From NCBI RefSeq assembly GCF_000722635.1, contig NZ_JOKH01000001.1:1362574-1426573 (forward strand): a stretch of DNA of 64,000 nucleotides, given 5' to 3'. Below are positions 26,191 to 55,011 of the stretch, one piece after another. Both the position numbers and the translations under genes were made by a program. This DNA is from Endozoicomonas numazuensis (lineage in GTDB: Bacteria > Pseudomonadota > Gammaproteobacteria > Pseudomonadales > Endozoicomonadaceae). The notes beneath the pieces are model-generated. The model had not been told where the DNA came from. It worked only from the letters and a program-made list of their open reading frames with translations, and did not search any database. How positions within the stretch are numbered: the first letter of the stretch is position 1; each line of letters opens with the position of its first letter.

Positions 26191-27581
26191 TGAATCAAGT
26201 CCGGAGAATGCTGGCATGGCCATTCCAGAGTTTGTTCTGGAAACTGTTTCTATGGTTTTGGCTGACTATGGTATCGATGATGGCCGCCATGGTTGTAACG
26301 GTGGCCATAACAGTGGATCCCTCCGATTTTTTGTCTGAGCGAAGAGAGCTGTTTCGAGAACTGGAGATTGTTTCCAGAAAAGTTGAGCGCATGGCCTCTG
26401 GCTGGGCATCTCATACACCTTTCCCACAGTTTACTGGTAGCTATTTCTATCTCTTTGACCCTGCTGGTGAAGTGGTGGGCAGGCGAGCTGTACCGGATGA
26501 GCTGATGTCAGCTTATGATCGAACCCATGATCGGAGTGAGCCCACGATTACATTCAGAAGTGGTGTAGTGGTGGTTGGTCCCAGAAAAGTCTGGATCGGA
26601 CGAGTTCCATATGACCTATTTCTGACTAAAGAAATGCCCAGGCTGGTTCATTGGCGAGTGACCAAAGTACTTTCTCAACAGTGGCATCTGGTTATTATTG
26701 CACTGGCGGTCAGTTTCCTGCTTTGCATTTTGTTGGCTCGTTACCTGGTCGTACCGATCAGGAGATTGCAGGGAACCTCTAGAAAACTGGCGAAAGGCGA
26801 GCTTTCTACCCGAGTGGATGCTTCTGTCCGGCAGAGAGGTGATGAGCTGGGAGATTTCGCCCGTGACTTCGATCATATGGCGGAGCAGCTTGAAACTCTG
26901 GTCAACAATAAGGAAATTTTGCTGAGGAATGTTTCTCATGAGCTGCGTTCTCCTCTGACACGACTGCAGATTTCTTTGGCACTTGCTCGCAGAAAAAGCC
27001 CTGAGGCAGATGCTGAACATGCGCGTATAGAAAGAGAAATTGAACGCCTTGATGAACTGATCGGTGAAATTATTCGCTTTTCCCGAATACAGCATGGTTT
27101 GAGTGAAGTTGCTTGCGAGCAGGTCAACCTGGAGCAGTTGCTGAAACAGCTGGTCGAGGATGGTGATTTTGAAGCTCAGGCCCAGAACAAAGGGGTTGAT
27201 CTGATTAAAAGCCAGCCGCTTGAGATTTGTGGTGTGCGTGACTGGCTGAGCAGTGCCGCTGAAAATATCATTCGTAATGCTATCCGGTTTACCCCGGAAG
27301 GTAGCAATGTTGAGGTGTCACTGGAGCAGTATCGGCGGAATGTGATCATCAAGGTGCGTGATAAAGGTCCCGGTGTTCCTGAAGAGGTACTGGAATCCAT
27401 GTTCGAACCTTTTTTCAGAGTGGATGAAACACGAGGGAAAGAGAACGATGGATTTGGGTTGGGTACTGCTATAGCAATGGGGGCTATTGCTAATCATGAT
27501 GGTCTTATATCGGCCAGGAATGCCCATCCAGGTCTTGAAGTGACTATAAAAATACCACTGGATAACAAGCTTAATGTATAA
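26187..27581 (+). CDS. Sensor histidine kinase, CpxA-like
   Basis: A 464-residue inner-membrane kinase. One TM helix near the N-terminus ([22 protein letters not shown]), a ~110-residue periplasmic domain, a second TM ([23 protein letters not shown]), HAMP, HisKA with the phospho-His in [17 protein letters not shown], and HATPase with N box [11 protein letters not shown]1 DKGPGVP and G2 GFGLGTAIA. All catalytic motifs are intact. Co-translated with the response regulator; its 3' end overlaps the endonuclease V gene by 8 bases, so the three probably form one operon. Confidence 0.92.
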
Positions 27582-28245
27582 CTGGGACCTCACTCCGGTT
27601 GAGGCCAGAAAGTCTCAGTTGGAGTTGTCCAGACAGGTTATCCAGAAAGATAATCTGTCTGAAGTCAGATGGGTTGCTGGTGTTGATGTGGGCTTTGAGC
27701 AACAAGGTTCGGTGACTCGTGCAGCCGTAGCATTGCTAGACTTCCCCAGTCTGGCGCTGAAAGGTTTCGTAATACATCGTGAACCTACCCGAATGCCTTA
27801 TATTCCGGGTCTCCTCTCTTTTCGTGAATGTCCAGCTATTATTGAGGCTCTGGGACAGTTGAATACTGCGCCAGATCTGATCCTTTGTGATGGCCAGGGC
27901 ATAGCTCACCCTCGCAGACTCGGTGTGGCTTGTCATCTGGGAGTATTGACAGGTTTGCCTGCCATTGGCGTTGCCAAAAGTCGGTTGTGTGGTCAGCATG
28001 ATGCCCTTGCAGAAGCAAAGGGCAGTCAGGTTGATTTGGTTGATAAAGGTGAAGTGATTGGTCGGGTCATCCGTAGCAGAAAAGGTGTGCGTCCACTTTA
28101 TGTTAGTATCGGGCACAAAGTTTCACTGACAACGGCTGTTGATTATGTTCTCGCTTGCCTTACCCAATACCGATTACCGGAAACAACTCGCTGGGCTGAT
28201 GCCCTGGCTTTAGAGGGTGTCGCAAAACCTACTACAAGCCGGTAA
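27574..28245 (+). CDS. nfi: Endonuclease V, C-terminus altered by IS insertion
   Basis: Cuts DNA next to deoxyinosine and starts alternative excision repair. The core is complete: [13 protein letters not shown] with the catalytic Asp, [39 protein letters not shown] and GVAKSRLCG. The reading frame runs into the IS1182-type element at 28212, so the last residues [11 protein letters not shown] are encoded by the element. On the far side of the element the sequence can be read SNRGKALEKARKQIEKIP then stop, in phase with WADALA, and gives a natural ending. The protein has lost ~18 native C-terminal residues but keeps the catalytic fold, so it may still work. Confidence 0.88.
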
Positions 28246-29937
28246 TCTGTATATTCAAGTAGCTTTACCGGCTTCAGCATGACGACAAGAACTCAAATAA
28301 AAATTAATACTGCTCCACAGCTCGATATTTTTTCAGGTACAGCCAGTAGTTCTGATCACAAAAAACAGGATGAATCCAAAAGATCAGCCAACAAAACAGG
28401 CAAACGACGTTTTGTTGCTCCTGACCCCAACGCAATCACTCTTGGCAACACTAACCTGAAAGAGCACCTTGAACTAACCGGTCAAAAAACACCTTTTACC
28501 GTTGCATCCCTTCTTGATGAACAGGACTGGTCTGATTTTGAGCAAAGGTATGCATTAGAAGGACGTCCTCCTTATTCACCCCGTAATATGATGGGTTTGA
28601 TTCTCTATGGCATTATGCAAGGCATTACCTCGTTGAGAACTCTGGAACGATTAGCCCGTGTCGATCTTGGCTGTATGTGGGTTACCGGAGGGATTTTTCC
28701 AGACCATGCCATTATTGGTCGCTTCATCAATATGCACAGCGAGTCCATGACCGGTGCTTTCTTTGAAAGCCTGACACGAGCCGTTCTCAAAAAAACAGAC
28801 TCCGATGGAAGTTGTCTGGCTGGTGATGGGACCGTTATAGAAGCCGCTTGCTCAAATTACAACCTGATGAAGCAGGAAGCTGCGCAACAGGTGCATGAAG
28901 CAGCACAAACGCAAGCTGACAACCATCCAGATTGCCCTGAAAGCCAAAAGAATCTGGAGATGGCCAGCAGTGCTCTCGAAGCAGTCGTTGAACGCAACGC
29001 GAAGCGAAAGAAGAACGGTAAGTCAGAAAGTGCTGTCGTAAGCCCTACAGAGCCTGAAGCTGTTGTCCAAAAGATGAAACGGGGGCGAGGGTACACAACG
29101 AGTTACAAGCCATCCGTATTAGCTAATAACAAGCGGGTGGTACTGGCTCAGGCTGTAGACCCTACCAATGAAACTACTGTCGTAAATCCAATGCTTGATC
29201 AGTCAATGCAGATCACGGGTAAACCAGTCGATGAAATGCTATTGGATGCTGGTTATTTTAATGATGAAGTCATTGCAACCAGTCTGGAGCACGATATCAG
29301 CCTGCTATGCCCTGAGGGTAAAGAACCAGGCAAACCCAAAGAATCCAAAAAGTTCCAGAAGGGACATTTTTATTACGATGAAACCAATGACGTTTATCGT
29401 TGCCCTGCAGGAAAAGAGTTGACTCCCATTGGTAAGATAAAAGGGAGCGCTCGCACAAAGGAGCAGAAGATATATGGCAATGGGCCTTGCGAAGGCTGCC
29501 TTCTCAAAGATAAATGCACGAGCAATAAGAAGGGGCGGCGCATAAAGCGCTATGCAATGGATGATGCTAAAGATGCACTGAGGCAGGTTATGCAGCATCC
29601 GAAAGCCAAAAAGTCTTTCAGCAAAAGGAAGGCGATGGTTGAACCTGTGTTTGCCTATTTACGGGATGTACAGGGATTAAACCGCTTCCGTCGCAAGGGG
29701 CTGGAAAAGGTTAAACTGGAATTTGGTTTGCACTTGCTGGCTTACAACCTGAGTAGGGCTGTAAAGGCCAATATTTACGCTATTTTATGGTACAACTGGC
29801 TTCTCTGGGCGTTGTTTGAGAAGTGTCACCCATTTATAGAAAAAATGGACAGCTGGGAAAGAGTCCCAATGAAGTGTCATTCTACACCGAGCAAAGCGCC
29901 TCACTGGGTTTGAATTTTGGCTTTTAAGACACCCTCT
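28212..29937 (+). mobile_element. IS1182-family insertion sequence
   Basis: Bounded by inverted ends: AGAGGGTGTC at 28212-28221 and GACACCCTCT at 29928-29937, with the match continuing imperfectly inwards (CAAAACC against TAAAAGCC). The flanks CTT before and CTT/TT after suggest a 2-3 base target duplication. It contains one full-length transposase gene, so it looks active or recently active. It sits in the 3' end of nfi, in the same orientation. Confidence 0.82.
28279..29913 (+). CDS. IS1182-family transposase
   Basis: A 544-residue DDE transposase, full length for the family. Seen: the N-terminal DUF772-like block (YSPRNMMGLILYGIMQGITSLRTLERLARVDLGCMWVTGG), GDGTVIEAACSNY with the first Asp, MLLDAGYFNDEVI with the second, a Cys-rich insert (GPCEGCLLKDKCTSN) and KRKAMVEPVFAYLRDVQGLNRFRRKGLEKVKLEFGLHLLAYNL with the Glu. 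It starts at the ATG at 28279, 67 bases inside the left end. Confidence 0.92.
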   Translation: MTTRTQIKINTAPQLDIFSGTASSSDHKKQDESKRSANKTGKRRFVAPDPNAITLGNTNLKEHLELTGQKTPFTVASLLDEQDWSDFEQRYALEGRPPYSPRNMMGLILYGIMQGITSLRTLERLARVDLGCMWVTGGIFPDHAIIGRFINMHSESMTGAFFESLTRAVLKKTDSDGSCLAGDGTVIEAACSNYNLMKQEAAQQVHEAAQTQADNHPDCPESQKNLEMASSALEAVVERNAKRKKNGKSESAVVSPTEPEAVVQKMKRGRGYTTSYKPSVLANNKRVVLAQAVDPTNETTVVNPMLDQSMQITGKPVDEMLLDAGYFNDEVIATSLEHDISLLCPEGKEPGKPKESKKFQKGHFYYDETNDVYRCPAGKELTPIGKIKGSARTKEQKIYGNGPCEGCLLKDKCTSNKKGRRIKRYAMDDAKDALRQVMQHPKAKKSFSKRKAMVEPVFAYLRDVQGLNRFRRKGLEKVKLEFGLHLLAYNLSRAVKANIYAILWYNWLLWALFEKCHPFIEKMDSWERVPMKCHSTPSKAPHWV

Positions 29938-48854: not shown

Positions 48855-48953
48855 ATTCGATCCTGATTGTTTTTGTTCTATTTCAGGTTAATTGAGATTG
48901 TTTAAGTATCAAGCGCTGGCCCCTGAAATCAAGGACCAGTGTCGCTGTATCTA

Positions 48954-50573
48954 TTATCTAAGAAGCTCGTAATCATCTACGCCTGGGGTATGCAAACGCT
49001 CAGCAATCTTGCTGGAAACCCTCTGGGCAAACGGTAGCTTCAAATTGGCGACCCATCGAAAAAATAAAGTTTTTCCCTCTTCAATTTCAGATTCAAAAAA
49101 GTAGTTTGCCCGACTGCTTTCTCCCGTCGGCTTGCTCTCTTTTCCTTCCACTGTTCCATGTGATGACCCCTTGAAGGGATACATCAATATATCCATTGGG
49201 TTCTTGCCTACCTTGCACCATACTTTTTCAGCCTGATCAGGTAAGCAAAAGTCAGGTATATTATTCATGTTGAACCCAACTTGACGAAGTGGAATAAATG
49301 GAAAGGCTCTTCCTTCCGTTGGTGAAATTCTTACTGAGTCACATAAAGGCTGTATGCATAGCAAGTAACGATTATCATTCGTAGCAATAATCGTTCCTAG
49401 AGATAATTTCGGAATCGATTGAAGAATTTTTGATGAGTTGGAGCACTGAATCTTTGTCAGCATACTCATTTCTGCATGATTCTCTACATCACATAACGTC
49501 TCTAAAACCGTTCTTCTTGCCTGTTTTACCTTGATTACAGGATCACTATTCTGATTGATCAGAACAGTTTTGTCAGAATGGTATTGACTTGTAGCCGCTT
49601 TAGACCAAAGTTTATGTTGTCTTTCTGATTCTGATGAGAACTTGTCATCTAGCCACTGACCAACTCTATTGGGCGATAATGCTTCAGAAACAGTAGGGTT
49701 TGAAAGTAGGACTGATATTTCATCAGAGATCAGATTTGTAATGTATGTTTCAGCGTCATTTGGGTCAGGAATAAGGCATTTGTGGGCTACAACTGATCCA
49801 TCTAGGTCAGAGCCAAACTTTGCAAGCAAATGATGAGTCTTCTCCCTTAGTGTAGAGATCGCACTGACGGCTGTTATTGGCAAAATACCTTCAATGAGGT
49901 TGGTAAAATGGCCAATAACAATTTCAGGTAGCTGATCATAACTTGTCAGCTTGACTTCACTACAGGAAACTCCTTCAGGTTTTCCAATGAAAACTATTTT
50001 TGTAGATCCATGTTTTAACTCATATGATCCAGGAGTACGAGAGAAGTGTAAATCAGAAAGCTTCTGTGTCAAAGTTGATAAGACTCCTTCTTCCTTTTCG
50101 CCACTAAAAATGACAATAAGCCTTAGTCTGCCGCCACCTTCCTGGTCATTTCGTAAGATCTCAACGATTGCATCTCCTATGAGAGTGGTTTTGTATTCAT
50201 CACTCAAGTTTTCAAGTTGCCAGTCAAGAAGCATGATGTCTGCGGCCATTGACATAGTCACAATCTGGCGTTTTGCATCAAGGGGTTCATCTGATGTTTT
50301 AATGACAGAACATTGGATACCCTTAGCAGCAAATGAACCTGTCAATTCTTGTGCATTCAAGCTGTGACTTTGTATATCAGTCAGCTCAGCGGTATCTTCA
50401 ACTTCTGATATGTCGGAAAAACTGTCTTCTGAATCATCGAAACCACTTCCAGGCAAACTGGCTACCATATTTGGCCCTAGAAGAGAGTCTTCATAGGCCT
50501 GATCATCAAAGCAAACGACGGTTTTCAAAAACTGCTCAGTTCTTGATTTATAGAACTCTTTAAGTGCTTCCAT
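48954..50573 (-). CDS. Receiver-domain protein with large insertion, third gene of Dcm-GHKL cassette
   Basis: A 539-residue protein from the ATG at 50573; a TTG at 50585 overlapping the previous stop is also possible, and either way translation is coupled. Residues ~18-200 are a modified response-regulator receiver: acidic pair Asp23-Asp24 (VVCFDDQ), phospho-acceptor Asp117 (IMLLDWQLE), Ser157 (VIFSGEK) and Lys198 (VFIGKPEG). About 60 extra residues, very acidic (GFDDSEDSFSDISEVEDTAE), are inserted after the first strand. The remaining ~340 residues match no family I know and hold no obvious nuclease or DNA-binding motif. They are the likely output part. Probably phosphorylated by, or docking to, the preceding ATPase. 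Confidence 0.75.
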   Translation of the reverse strand: MEALKEFYKSRTEQFLKTVVCFDDQAYEDSLLGPNMVASLPGSGFDDSEDSFSDISEVEDTAELTDIQSHSLNAQELTGSFAAKGIQCSVIKTSDEPLDAKRQIVTMSMAADIMLLDWQLENLSDEYKTTLIGDAIVEILRNDQEGGGRLRLIVIFSGEKEEGVLSTLTQKLSDLHFSRTPGSYELKHGSTKIVFIGKPEGVSCSEVKLTSYDQLPEIVIGHFTNLIEGILPITAVSAISTLREKTHHLLAKFGSDLDGSVVAHKCLIPDPNDAETYITNLISDEISVLLSNPTVSEALSPNRVGQWLDDKFSSESERQHKLWSKAATSQYHSDKTVLINQNSDPVIKVKQARRTVLETLCDVENHAEMSMLTKIQCSNSSKILQSIPKLSLGTIIATNDNRYLLCIQPLCDSVRISPTEGRAFPFIPLRQVGFNMNNIPDFCLPDQAEKVWCKVGKNPMDILMYPFKGSSHGTVEGKESKPTGESSRANYFFESEIEEGKTLFFRWVANLKLPFAQRVSSKIAERLHTPGVDDYELLR

Positions 50574-50581
50574 AGCGATGA

Positions 50582-53500
50582 TCAAAACTCCAGCTCAAGT
50601 GAAGGGTTGTCTGATTCATTAATTTCGTGGGTGACATGGACTAAAAATTTTGGGTGCACATTTTTACCAGCTTGCAAAAGCTCCAAATCCATACCTTCAT
50701 GACGCAATGCTTTACGAGAGATGCTCAACCCCATGCCTCTACCATTCTCCTTAGTAGAAAAGCCAAAATCAAAAATAGTATCAGCATGGCGGGCATCGAT
50801 CCCTGGACCATAGTTCTCAACTAGGAGGCCATCAGGATGATAGTCAAGTTTGATAATGCGACTTTCTTTTTCAGTATTTTCTAACCAGTGACAGGCATTG
50901 TCGACGAGATTGACAAATACTGGCAATATGCTTGAAATGTATGTGTTTACAACGGTTCCACGGAATTTATCTGTAACTTCAAACTTTATGCCTTTCTGTT
51001 CAAAACGCTCTCCAAAAAGATCCAGAAGGTACTTCCTGATTTCATCACCAACCAGCGTCGTTTTATTTCTATTGAGCCTTCTGTCCATAGGGGCAAAAAG
51101 GCGAAGATATTCTTCAAGGTGCATAAAGCCGGAACTGAGCTCCTTGTATAACTGGCGAAGAGGAGGAGTGCCTTTTGCCCAGACTTGGAGCTGTCTGATA
51201 TTTCGCTTTATTTTTCGGACGGTGCTGTTGAACTCATGCTGAACTATCCCCAGGGCCATACCAACTTGGGCCCATTGTAGTGAGCTTTCCAATTCCTCTT
51301 TCAGAGCTTCATTATTTTGTTCAAGTGCAGACGTTACATCGTCAGGTAATACGTCTTCTGACAAATATCTGCTCCAATTGTCGAGCTGCTTGTGCAAGCT
51401 GTCGAGATAGGCTCGCTCTTTTTCAGCTGTGCTTTCCAATCGCTCTTCTAACAAAGATCTAAAGCTGGCTAGCTCGCTACTTGGCATTTGAGATAAGTTT
51501 GCACGCTCAAAGTCAGAGAGTATGGTAGCCATTTCATTGCTTAACCGACTCTTACTCTCTCTGATGCTTTTACGAATGATATCCTGTGTTTTTAGCAACT
51601 CAGTGTTTGCCATCTTCTGGCTTTTCTGAACAGACTTTGTCAGCTGTTCTTTCCTTTCGCTGATCGCTGAGTGTATAAGTTGACGCTTATCGACAGCTTT
51701 TTGATGTTTATCAATAAACTCAGTAAGCTTGCTTTCAACATGTCGATTGGCAGGATCAAGGCTGTTTAGTTTCAGTTCAGAACTTATTCTCTGATAAGCG
51801 TGCCAGTCATCTTGTAAGCTTTTGTTGAGACCAAGTCCCTGTGGTTTGGAGACTTGAAATTGTTTCTTTAAGTTTTCTAAAGCTTTTTGAGTGTTTTGCT
51901 CGAGGTTGTGTAAATGTTCTGGCAGGCTATCACTCTCAACTTTATATAAAGCATCCAATTTAGAGTCAAACTTGGCAATGATCTCATCAAGTTCTTTTGT
52001 ATATTGCTCATCCTCAATAGCTTTGAAAAAAGAATCTAAAGACTTGATAAATGCGCTTTTCTGAGTATTGACAAGTTTTTCTCTCTTTTTTAAAAGCTCG
52101 TTCTGAGCTTTGAACTCATCTTTCAGCAACCAGAACTCATCACTCTGGATACCTTTCTTTCTGTAAAAATCCCTTGCCACAGCAATAAACAAATTAATGA
52201 GAATTTCTTTGAACTGTCTATATGGGATGGTTTCAATGAATCCCTCCCTGCCCGCCTTCTCTTTGAGAGCGCTATTTTGATCAGAAGAAATCTCTATCGC
52301 TCCTAGAATGCGGCGGTATGAGAAAAAATAATCTTTTGCAGATTTCGTGCGACGACTCTCTATCCCAAGGAAGTCATAGTCTGAATCACCATAAGGTAAA
52401 ACACGCACCCCGTTTCTAAATATATAGAGGCCACCTATCCTAGAAAGTTTTGTGTCCATCAAAGTCCATTCTTCAGCAGGAAGAGTGCTTTCATGTTTTA
52501 ACCCCATCATGTAGCCAAATCGGATGCTAAATGGACCACATTTGATTTTCTCGCCTTTGCCTCTACTCCAGTTCAGAGTGTACGGCACAGGTTCATGATC
52601 ATAGACTTTAACCAACCCTTGGAACTGACCATACTCATCGAATTTACCTTCAATAATCTGATCAGCGCTCAGGTACTCTTCTGGAGTAAAGAAAGCCCGC
52701 TCACTGATAAAGTCTTCAATCTCACCATTAAGATTATGCTTTCTGAAATAGGTTTTGATTGGAGGAGCTTCATTTCCAGGTAGCATAGTGTTGCTGAAGC
52801 CAGTTAGAAGCTTCTGAAGTCGAGACGCTGTTTTGCCTTCTGTATCTTCCGTCTCAAGGTCTTCATCAAGCACTGCGTCATAAGGTCTGACAATGAAAGC
52901 AGTACCGTGGGAATCCCCCTCCAGTGAAATTTCTCCGCAGCTAGCCATAACCTTTGATGGCTCAAACGTCATCAGTTCCAGGTCACTGGCAATTTGTTTT
53001 TTTGTTGCATCGGGTACCATGACTCCCAATTCATTGAGCCCTTCCATTATGCTCTTACCCATTACAGCTAGATCCTCTTGCTTAGGAAGAATTCCGCCTG
53101 GGAAAGTTTTTACAGGTATACGAATTTGCTCAAGGTTCAGTCCAGGCAGTTCAAAAATACCCCAATGAATCAGACATGCCACTGTATCGTGTAGACCATC
53201 CTCACGTTTTGCTCGAGTGATTACCAGCACAGCCGGGCCAATAGTGGCTATGGCTAATCGTCCAATACCTTTCTCACCCAAGGTCCAGCGGGGTTCTTTG
53301 CCATAATCTCCCAGCCAGTCCGCAGTGTGCTTGAGCTGCCCAACCTTGCTTTCTGTGCCAAGCGTCAGCCAACGTTCTTTGAAATCTTTTTCAGTCATAC
53401 CAAAGCCATCATCCCTGAGAATCAAGGCTCGGTCCTTTACCAAGAGGTCAACTTCTACTTTACGAGCAAAAGCATCATAAGCAATTTTAAAAAGCTCATG

Positions 53501-53593
53501 GAGTGCGTTAGGTATCCCTGCGATCTGTTGCCTGCCAAGCAAATCGACCGCTCTGGCACGGACTTTTATTGAGGCTGAATCAGAGGTTTCCAT
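50582..53593 (-). CDS. Double-GHKL ATPase / histidine-kinase-like protein with central coiled coil
   Basis: A 1003-residue protein from the ATG at 53593 (a GTG at 53620 is in frame). Residues ~10-290: a MORC/MutL/HSP90-like GHKL ATPase with G1 RDDGFGM, WLTLGTESK and G2 GEKGIGRLA, but with Ile36 where the N-box Asn should be (ELFKIAYDA). Residues ~480-760: long charged coiled coil. Residues ~780-990: a histidine-kinase-like end with His786 in GIVQHEFNSTV, N box LVDNA with Asn899, G1 written ENYGPGI with Asn927 in place of Asp, and G2 GRGMGLSIS. No membrane segment. It sits between a cytosine methyltransferase and a receiver protein, so it is probably the sensor or switch of that cassette. Confidence 0.8.
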   Translation of the reverse strand: METSDSASIKVRARAVDLLGRQQIAGIPNALHELFKIAYDAFARKVEVDLLVKDRALILRDDGFGMTEKDFKERWLTLGTESKVGQLKHTADWLGDYGKEPRWTLGEKGIGRLAIATIGPAVLVITRAKREDGLHDTVACLIHWGIFELPGLNLEQIRIPVKTFPGGILPKQEDLAVMGKSIMEGLNELGVMVPDATKKQIASDLELMTFEPSKVMASCGEISLEGDSHGTAFIVRPYDAVLDEDLETEDTEGKTASRLQKLLTGFSNTMLPGNEAPPIKTYFRKHNLNGEIEDFISERAFFTPEEYLSADQIIEGKFDEYGQFQGLVKVYDHEPVPYTLNWSRGKGEKIKCGPFSIRFGYMMGLKHESTLPAEEWTLMDTKLSRIGGLYIFRNGVRVLPYGDSDYDFLGIESRRTKSAKDYFFSYRRILGAIEISSDQNSALKEKAGREGFIETIPYRQFKEILINLFIAVARDFYRKKGIQSDEFWLLKDEFKAQNELLKKREKLVNTQKSAFIKSLDSFFKAIEDEQYTKELDEIIAKFDSKLDALYKVESDSLPEHLHNLEQNTQKALENLKKQFQVSKPQGLGLNKSLQDDWHAYQRISSELKLNSLDPANRHVESKLTEFIDKHQKAVDKRQLIHSAISERKEQLTKSVQKSQKMANTELLKTQDIIRKSIRESKSRLSNEMATILSDFERANLSQMPSSELASFRSLLEERLESTAEKERAYLDSLHKQLDNWSRYLSEDVLPDDVTSALEQNNEALKEELESSLQWAQVGMALGIVQHEFNSTVRKIKRNIRQLQVWAKGTPPLRQLYKELSSGFMHLEEYLRLFAPMDRRLNRNKTTLVGDEIRKYLLDLFGERFEQKGIKFEVTDKFRGTVVNTYISSILPVFVNLVDNACHWLENTEKESRIIKLDYHPDGLLVENYGPGIDARHADTIFDFGFSTKENGRGMGLSISRKALRHEGMDLELLQAGKNVHPKFLVHVTHEINESDNPSLELEF

Positions 53594-53635
53594 TTTTAAA
53601 CCCGCTGTTAATCCTTCCACTGTGAGAGAGGTGGC

Positions 53636-54679
53636 TTACTTTGATGATGAGAGGCAATCCATAATAGACGATGCCATGCGGCATATCATATTAACTGGGA
53701 CAGCATTGCCAATCTGGCGTGCAATTTGACCGGAATTACCATAAAAGGAGTATTCACGAGGAAACGTCTGAAGTAAGGCTGCTTCTCTGAGAGAGATAGC
53801 TCGATCATCTTCAGGGTGAGCAAAGCGACCTCTGGTTATATCTGTACAGCCAGTAGTGAGTGTTGGCGCAACATCATCCCATTTCATTCTGCCATATACA
53901 TCGGGATATGCTTTAGTGTCTTTATGACAATTAAGCTGAAGCTCATAAGGTATCGAAAACCTTGAACCACCATCCTTTTCTATATAAGAAAGCCTTTTTA
54001 GAGCAATTTCCGAGTGATTTCTGGCAAAGTGCAATTTATCTTTGGGGTCTTTCTGGCCTGCTGCAAGAGAGCGCAATCCTGAAATTGCATCTCGAACAGT
54101 AACCTTTGAGGAAGGCTTCAAGGATGCATAGAACTGTTCAGTCAGCTCTCGGCTTTTTGACGCCACCATGATGCTTCTCACTCTTCTTTGTGGCACGTTA
54201 TAATGAGCAGCGTTCAAAGTTCTGGGCTCACCGAGGTAGTAACCATACTCAGACAGTTTTGTACTCAGCTTTTTGCTGACTCCACTAAGAGCTATTCCAG
54301 GGACATTCTCAAAAAAAACCACATTAGGAGTGAGCTGTTCAACGAACTTAATACATTCTAATACTAGATCTGAGCGTGGGTCATCAGATCCACGTAGACG
54401 ATTTTGGCTGCTGAAGGGTTGGCAAGGAGCACAAACTACAAGCAAATCGATACTTTTATTTTGGCAAACATCAGCTGCTTTGAGGCTTCTGATATCACCC
54501 TCTGCAAGATTGACTTCAGGGTGATTCATACGGTAGGTCTTGCAAGCAACTGGGTCATTATCTACTGCCGCCAAGACCTTAAATCCTACTTGCTTAAGAC
54601 CTTGGCTGACTGCCCCAGACCCACAATATAGGTCAACTGCCGTCCAAACTTTTTCTAGATTCCTTCTATTTTCCACCAC
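53636..54679 (-). CDS. DNA (cytosine-5-)-methyltransferase
   Basis: A 347-residue C5 methyltransferase starting at GTG 54679. Motif I VDLYCGSGAVSQGL (AdoMet), motif IV CAPCQPFSSQNR with the catalytic Cys86, motif VI FFENVPG, motif VIII NVPQRRVRSIM, and motif X RQIGNAVPV are all present, so it should be active. The target-recognition region between VIII and X is short, ~120 residues; the site it modifies cannot be read. First gene of the cassette, 42 bases before the GHKL ATPase. There is no restriction endonuclease next to it, so methylation may instead mark self DNA for the ATPase/receiver pair. Confidence 0.93.
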   Translation of the reverse strand: MVENRRNLEKVWTAVDLYCGSGAVSQGLKQVGFKVLAAVDNDPVACKTYRMNHPEVNLAEGDIRSLKAADVCQNKSIDLLVVCAPCQPFSSQNRLRGSDDPRSDLVLECIKFVEQLTPNVVFFENVPGIALSGVSKKLSTKLSEYGYYLGEPRTLNAAHYNVPQRRVRSIMVASKSRELTEQFYASLKPSSKVTVRDAISGLRSLAAGQKDPKDKLHFARNHSEIALKRLSYIEKDGGSRFSIPYELQLNCHKDTKAYPDVYGRMKWDDVAPTLTTGCTDITRGRFAHPEDDRAISLREAALLQTFPREYSFYGNSGQIARQIGNAVPVNMICRMASSIMDCLSSSK

Positions 54680-55011
54680 AATGCCTATAAAAAATGATCA
54701 GAGACCCCAGATATGGAATTTTATCCATTGTATCAGCTCTGAGTATTCCTCTCTCATATTATTATTAGTCATAAAAGTATGAGAATTTTACAGCAATCAT
54801 GAGAAAAACCACAATTTATACACTTGGATTGACTGGCTTTTCATCAATAACATAGGTATCCGAAACAGATTAAATACTAAAGCTTTAATAGTAGTCTTGT
54901 TATTATTTATTCGTATCATCTAACTGAGTCTTTGGCTTGAGGTTTTCCTTTCCTAAGCTAGAAGAACTTCGTGTAACCAGAAAGGAAAACCTAATATCCA
55001 GACTATTTTAC
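54680..55011. other. AT-rich junction between liuE and the methyltransferase cassette
   Basis: 332 bases, clearly more AT-rich than the flanking leucine genes. It should contain the cassette promoter (minus strand). A CTCATA ... TATGAG pair with a 19-base spacer lies at about 54752-54782 and may be an operator. The liuE-proximal side holds the perfect inverted repeat at 54940-54992. No gene seen. Confidence 0.5.
54940..54992. repeat. Perfect 13-bp inverted repeat after liuE
   Basis: AGGTTTTCCTTTC at 54940-54952 and its exact reverse complement at 54980-54992, with a 27-base spacer, 19 bases past the liuE stop. Without a T-run it is a weak terminator; it may mark the edge of the inserted cassette. 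Confidence 0.65.

Follow-up and report, generated by a model that had tools for sequence, protein, structure and literature searches.

The domains HEF_HK (PF19191) and Response_reg_2 (PF19192) were defined through comparative genomics by Bellieny-Rabelo et al. in 2021 (PMC8011034), who reported 91.6% linkage of the two over 644 regions, often with a C5 cytosine methylase gene upstream and, where a Vsr gene is present, with that gene most often downstream. The kinase family is reported to be soluble; 174 of 222 proteins have the architecture HATPase_c_3 + HEF_HK + HATPase_c (group 1), and 34 of the 222 are entirely without HATPase_c_3. The authors proposed a two-component-like system that controls restriction-modification (R-M) systems, and assigned no output domain to the regulator in the sections of their paper used here. 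Related GHKL proteins, the paraMORCs, had been placed in R-M operons by Iyer, Abhiman and Aravind in 2008 (PMC2292703), and VcSduA, a paraMORC3 Shedu protein, is experimentally antiphage (PMC12137116). Here we analyse a methylase, a hybrid GHKL protein (the kinase) and a response regulator, encoded by three uninterrupted minus-strand open reading frames (ORFs) in an operon-like arrangement within a 64,000-nucleotide stretch of the Endozoicomonas numazuensis contig NZ_JOKH01000001.1; the whole of this stretch is referred to as the window. The regulator is predicted to end in a MazF-like domain, and the methylases of such trios appear to share a DNA target.

An earlier note, made from the sequence alone, recognised three intact minus-strand genes for a C5 methyltransferase, a protein with a MORC/MutL-like and a histidine-kinase-like ATPase, and a receiver protein, all of which is confirmed by the ORFs (Table 1) and by Pfam matches to all three proteins. 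It knew of no named defence system with this trio. That the trio was unreported is not supported: it was published in 2021 through comparative genomics, and what is added here are predictions about the output domain and about the DNA sequence that the methylase reads.

Comparison with described systems

The window cassette shares with the 2021 module (PMC8011034) both domains, the group 1 architecture, the adjacency of the two genes, the upstream methylase and the phosphotransfer residues. It differs in having no Vsr gene and in carrying Ile at ATPase motif I. The sections used of that paper left the C-terminal half of the regulator unassigned and covered bacteria only, whereas we give an output prediction and report archaeal members. 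Like the paraMORC/MORC R-M operons, the cassette links an N-terminal GHKL ATPase to a cytosine methylase, sometimes with Vsr; unlike them, its GHKL domain shares a polypeptide with a histidine-kinase half and has a receiver protein as its partner, and the cassette lacks genes for a helicase or an RE-fold nuclease (PMC2292703, in the parts used). In Shedu, as in the model put forward here, a GHKL ATPase is proposed to control a defence effector; there the effector is a fused PD-(D/E)XK nuclease, and a methylase, kinase or receiver is not described in the sections used (PMC12137116). PorX combines a receiver with a PglZ-type phosphodiesterase, whereas no PglZ was seen among the 25 Pfam families listed for the trio regulators; PADLOC gave a weak PglZ match (E 0.018) in one of 71 regulators.

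We found no defence name or experiment for the module in the open-access literature, with subscription papers and preprints mostly outside the scope of the search, and no matching system in the sections used of PMC9523054 or PMC12839542. With PADLOC 2.0.0 the window regulator has no family at E 1 or better, and over the 71 regulators at E 0.1 there were six stray families with one member each. Named systems for the other two proteins were sought and rejected: the methylase gave generic methylase models (among 25 of 64 matches listed), and the kinase gave a weak type II enzyme match at residues 13–129 (E 2.9e-5) and two weak ZorA matches in its middle. A partial NCBIfam match to BbrUII/HgiDII at kinase residues 19–140 (51 bits against a cut-off of 550) reflects the shared GHKL domain and not membership.

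Occurrence and joint inheritance of the trio

The analysis covers 95 loci: 14 found in genomes through the two Pfam families, 80 related loci found through kinase alignment, and the window. L013, L038 and L039, weak family matches without a convincing kinase match, were dropped before counting, and removal of the duplicates L045, L079, L089 and L101 left 91 distinct loci. The alignments have 95 rows for the kinase and 92 each for the regulator and the methylase.

The order methylase–kinase–regulator is found in 80 of the 91 distinct loci, window counted and archaea included, and we therefore conclude that the grouping is not due to chance; the linkage on which the earlier note had staked its reading holds. 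In seven loci the methylase lies directly behind the regulator, two have kinase and regulator with no methylase in the fetched DNA, one (L037) is divergent, and one (L083) ends at a contig edge. At the kinase–regulator junction the median overlap is 4 bases. The hosts carry 17 phylum labels and include archaeal relatives of Methanosarcina and Methanoperedens. Within the phylum of the window the kinase domain was present in 14 of 398 sampled genomes, the window's own included (13 above the cut-off), and the loci of two of these, L038 and L039, later proved unconvincing.

The three proteins have been inherited together. Over 86 loci, pairwise distances correlate at 0.915 for kinase and regulator, 0.67 for kinase and methylase, and 0.63 for regulator and methylase, with none of 2000 permutations as high, figures probably inflated by a distant clade of six. 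Within the main clade of 80 loci, the receiver follows the kinase-half of its partner with a partial r of 0.335 given the kinase N-terminus (0 of 300 permutations as high). A coupling between the methylase recognition region and the regulator C-terminus beyond shared history was rejected (partial r −0.03, a value equalled or exceeded in 233 of 300 permutations).

The divergent trio at L037 (6591–11578) has a 745-residue kinase and a 400-residue receiver-like protein, with an HNH-like gene farther along. The kinases of L044 and L045 are identical over their last 800 residues. Their metagenome-assembled genomes, labelled Actinomycetes and Solibacter, share an isolate prefix, and a single sequence may have been binned twice.

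The regulator and its output half

The receiver domain, in which the earlier note had correctly seen that the phosphotransfer residues are kept, belongs to a named Pfam family, Response_reg_2 (125.3 bits against a cut-off of 27), and spans only residues 19–205 of the regulator. Its phosphoacceptor Asp121 is present in 92 of 92 rows. Residues are numbered here from the first start codons (TTG for the regulator, GTG for the kinase), so that Cys86, His786 and Asp117 of the earlier note, which are right in its own numbering, become Cys86, His795 and Asp121.

The C-terminus of the regulator is predicted by structure modelling to resemble a MazF/CcdB-like barrel, a fold that includes endoribonucleases. 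The earlier note saw no nuclease, and by sequence this stands; the predicted fold is what may alter it. In comparison with the MazF/PemK endoribonuclease toxins, the barrel has no detectable sequence similarity and sits behind a receiver, and its conserved residues differ from those that we take to be MazF's. A Foldseek search with the whole regulator gave no row at E 0.001, and a MazF entry at rank 21. PemK (PF02452) was not matched by the window regulator, nor was it among the 25 Pfam families listed, of 39, for 71 members, the set consisting of 70 ORFs of 500–620 residues from 80 named loci, plus the window. The same 25 families include no nuclease hidden in the regulator, and the regulator profile against PDB sequences gave no nuclease and one chance match (glomulin, E 0.073); a nuclease of another fold may still be present.

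The profile search for the C-terminal domain is insensitive to the divergent clade, which limits any claim that the domain is exclusive to these trios. It missed the divergent-clade regulators of genomes G722, G489, G816 and G606, which were found through their kinases and by eye carry the same C/C-D motif.

The methylase and its target region

The PCQ cysteine, Cys86, is present in 91 of 92 methylase rows, the remaining row having a gap in the alignment. Among the main-clade trio methylases the recognition region matches the catalytic core in conservation, with mean identities of 0.446 and 0.428 respectively (3562 pairs), in contrast to 28 control C5 methylases, where the values are 0.204 and 0.433 (377 pairs; unlike regions align poorly, which lowers the first of these). 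At a core identity of 0.35–0.40 the recognition region has an identity of 0.380 within trios (1518 pairs), 0.128 among the control methylases (79 pairs), and 0.247 when a trio methylase is compared with a control (300 pairs); in controls it reaches 0.591 once core identity exceeds 0.60 (50 pairs). The controls are the best PF00145 scorers, one per genome, with a usable ORF in 28 of 30 loci, and mix descents, so that they are neither a random nor an orthologous sample. Because the recognition region is as conserved as the core in trios, unlike in controls, we infer from these sequence comparisons that trio methylases probably differ from ordinary R-M methylases in having one common recognition sequence, or close versions of it.

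Among solved proteins a 25-row methylase profile matched eukaryotic DNMT1 enzymes most closely (E 2e-54), then 3g7u (1.3e-46), HaeIII (4.5e-43) and HhaI (1.3e-36). The window methylase sequence alone matched HaeIII best (E 1e-22), followed by 3g7u and DNMT1 (2e-21); DNMT1 ranks first only under the 25-row profile. The partner MORC-like ATPases are also related to eukaryotic chromatin factors (PMC2292703). Two other C5 methylase sequences were seen in genome G000: a fragment with an internal stop at C3:813801–814019 (L003), and a complete gene at C5:289117–290256.

The kinase

The kinase consists of an N-terminal paraMORC-type ATPase, a variable middle, a HEF_HK phosphoacceptor domain (94.7 bits against a cut-off of 24.1) and a kinase ATPase, giving the Pfam architecture HATPase_c_3 + HEF_HK + HATPase_c. 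Every one of the 95 rows has His795. At residue 46 the window copy has Ile, against Asn in each of the 93 other copies aligned there, and one row is gapped; this agreement is partly by construction, because one of the two peptide patterns used to find the 80 related loci contains that Asn, and the Pfam-derived set of 14 loci, which is free of this bias, has Asn as well. In GHKL ATPases this Asn helps to hold Mg-ATP. Judged by the conserved ATP-binding motifs that mark paraMORCs, the domain is present but its motif I Asn is replaced. Ile46 may reflect a sequencing error, a defect that arose naturally, or a change that the protein tolerates. Other departures are few: at near-invariant columns there are three in the kinase, one in the regulator and one in the methylase, within the range of other rows. 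We regard the window cassette as an intact and routine member of the known module, possibly an impaired one.

Insertion site and mobility

The window trio was acquired horizontally. Response_reg_2 occurs in one of 95 genomes, the window's own, and in none of 94 relatives, ten of them of the same genus. The genes on either side, read from their translations as HMG-CoA lyase and acetoacetyl-CoA synthetase (AACS) of a leucine-catabolism operon, are 6157 bases apart in the window; in 8 of 12 relatives (six junctions were read) they adjoin, 16–149 bases apart by tblastn ends, and in the remaining four the fetched stretch has no HMG-CoA lyase. The G+C content of the insert is 0.418 against 0.466 for the window, and third-position G+C is 0.35–0.40 in the three trio genes against 0.47–0.49 in four flanking genes. 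No integrase was found among insert ORFs of at least 100 residues.

The same lone trio stands amid transport genes on a Pantoea dispersa plasmid, and a Rhizobium plasmid has the order kinase–regulator–methylase–Vsr. In 72,556 plasmid records there were four kinase matches (E 1e-30) and two regulator matches (E 1e-5); neither protein had a match in 50,697 phage records.

Neighbouring genes

A separate nuclease is not a constant part of the trio. A neighbouring family read from sequence as Vsr accompanies 40 of the 95 loci (38 of 91 distinct), 30 of the 40 genes lying within 300 bp of the trio, and an HNH-read family in 9 of 95. The window genome has no match to PF03852 (Vsr), and no restriction endonuclease was recognised in the window cassette from ORFs, Pfam or PADLOC.

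The earlier note suggested a search for defence-island context, which proved mixed. We scanned 119 of 126 nearest neighbours from 70 loci, with no control set; the seven omitted belong to L056 (two), L063, L085, L088, L096 and L104. Matches were to phage integrase (6), HNH_2 (6), type I specificity (2) and N6/N4 methylase (2), and the PADLOC families, among 25 of 270 listed, were mainly ATPases and HNH. The window cassette stands alone between genes read as leucine catabolism. Two divergent trios have a gene behind the regulator that by eye resembles an Mrr-type restriction nuclease (L035, 11327–12103; L037, 5066–5845), and four Bacteroidota trios (L114, L117, L118, L103) have an ATPase of about 600 residues and of one OLD-like family in the same position.

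Layout of the locus

Counted from the first start codons, methylase and kinase are separated by 15 bases and kinase and regulator overlap by 4; the gaps of 42 and about 8 bases given in the earlier note apply if internal ATG starts are used. Where the insert begins on its upstream side, just past HMG-CoA lyase, there is a perfect 13-bp inverted repeat (54940–54952/54980–54992), which may be a terminator or a regulatory site. A scan of ten further window ORFs gave transport, signalling and similar genes, among them a DDE transposase 19 kb off. An endonuclease V gene adjoins the DDE transposase gene at 27574–29913, in a stretch that has two sensor histidine kinases.

Table 1. Features of the cassette and its surroundings, in window coordinates.
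Feature	Position	Strand	Basis
C5 cytosine DNA methyltransferase, 347 residues	53636..54679	-	PF00145, 208 bits; motif residues
Methylase motifs: Cys86 in PCQ, ENV 124–126, QxRxR 164–168	within 53636..54679	-	conserved in trio rows
Methylase target-recognition region, residues 190–290, our delimitation	53810..54112	-	conservation comparison
Hybrid GHKL protein (kinase), 1012 residues	50582..53620	-	ORF listing, Pfam
HATPase_c_3, residues 38–140; Glu42 kept, residue 46 Ile	53201..53509	-	Pfam, alignment
HEF_HK phosphoacceptor domain, residues 785–851, His795-Glu796	51068..51268	-	Pfam, alignment
HATPase_c kinase domain, residues 901–976; Asn904, Asn908, G938, G960, G962, G964 kept	50693..50920	-	Pfam, alignment
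Response_reg_2 response-regulator protein, 543 residues	48954..50585	-	ORF listing, Pfam, structure model
Receiver domain, residues 19–205: D27, D28, D116, phosphoacceptor D121, S161, K202	49971..50531	-	
Helical bundle, residues 206–378; R247, D262 conserved, H268 mostly conserved	49452..49970	-	alignment, structure model
Predicted MazF-like beta-barrel and helix, residues 386–543; G397, C410, C415-D416, R419 conserved	48957..49430	-	structure prediction, alignment
Interval holding the cassette; flanking genes read as AACS and HMG-CoA lyase	48855..55011	.	junction comparison
Leader between HMG-CoA lyase and methylase	54680..55011	.	sequence

Proposed mechanism and alternatives

We tentatively read the trio as a defence or addiction module that is licensed by methylation, gated by a phosphorelay and equipped with an effector of MazF fold, and give this chain, in some form, a little less than an even chance. 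The steps of sensing, phosphotransfer and killing that we infer are as follows. On host DNA the methylase would modify a single, constant target. Through its N-terminal ATPase the paraMORC-histidine kinase would handle DNA; on meeting DNA that is foreign or unmarked, or when the mark is lost, it would signal this by autophosphorylation at His795, from which the phosphate would move to Asp121 of the regulator. The receiver would then, via the helical bundle, free the MazF-like barrel, which would act on nucleic acid, most likely RNA, stopping growth or the invader. Such a module would be of an abortive or addiction type gated by a phosphorelay, as opposed to a restriction system that relies on a separate nuclease. 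The self-marking methylase and phosphorelay proposed in the earlier note agree with a conserved trio that is patchy, horizontally acquired and sometimes beside R-M genes, and whose output half had no assigned function. A more exact form, in which the paraMORC-kinase reads the missing fixed cytosine mark and the receiver unleashes a diverged MazF-type RNase, as an immune or addiction system of both bacteria and archaea, we consider doubtful.

The likeness to MazF finds no support in sequence, comparison of the regulator with a PemK profile by hhalign giving 0.2% (20 of 30 PemK loci met the sequence pattern chosen for this test), and residue 46 of the kinase may, on sequence grounds, make the window copy weak or dead. 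It is unlikely, though credible, that the window copy is indeed non-functional through Ile46, or that this residue is an assembly error; the Asn of all 93 other aligned kinases favours this, but there is no further sign of decay, and the relay may work without the N-terminal ATPase, because 34 of 222 kinases lack HATPase_c_3 (PMC8011034).

The trio might also be an epigenetic regulator that does not kill, its barrel binding nucleic acid or protein and its relay tuning transcription or methylation according to the state of the DNA. The fixed specificity of the methylase, the absence of any nuclease that regularly accompanies the trio, the position of the cassette among genes read as metabolic, and the speculation of the 2021 authors that the domains control R-M systems (PMC8011034) would all suit such a role. 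However, the trio is patchy, horizontally moved and dispensable, being in 0 of 94 relatives and 14 of 398 genomes of the phylum, and a host-gene regulator is unlikely to function in bacteria and archaea alike. We find this explanation unlikely while still worth serious attention. A variant R-M system, with cutting licensed by the relay and done by a Vsr-like or HNH nuclease linked to the trio, or else by an unlinked nuclease, appears very improbable: the Vsr-read and HNH-read neighbours described above point towards it, as does the loss of fitness reported for Caulobacter cells without a solitary cytosine methylase and expressing a Vsr-like protein (2026, PMC12907096, in the sections used), but no Vsr is present among the examined genes of 53 of the 91 loci (some shortened by contig ends), the window genome has no PF03852 match, and Vsr beside a C5 methylase is also expected as mismatch repair. 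We think it quite improbable that the cassette is a purely selfish addiction element and not a defence, in which the methylase would hold the relay inactive and the MazF-like output would be set off once the cassette is lost. The predicted output fold and the stand-alone insertions in the window and amid transport genes on the Pantoea plasmid would be consistent with this, but the trio is rare on plasmids (4 of 72,556 records), and the idea overlaps with the methylation-licensed module, from which it is indistinguishable here.

The methylation-licensed module, with a predicted MazF-like output and a predicted conserved methylation target, is a concrete and testable model. If it is true, covalent phosphorylation would replace the antitoxin in gating an RNase-like effector, and histidine-kinase signalling would be joined to methylation-based self recognition.
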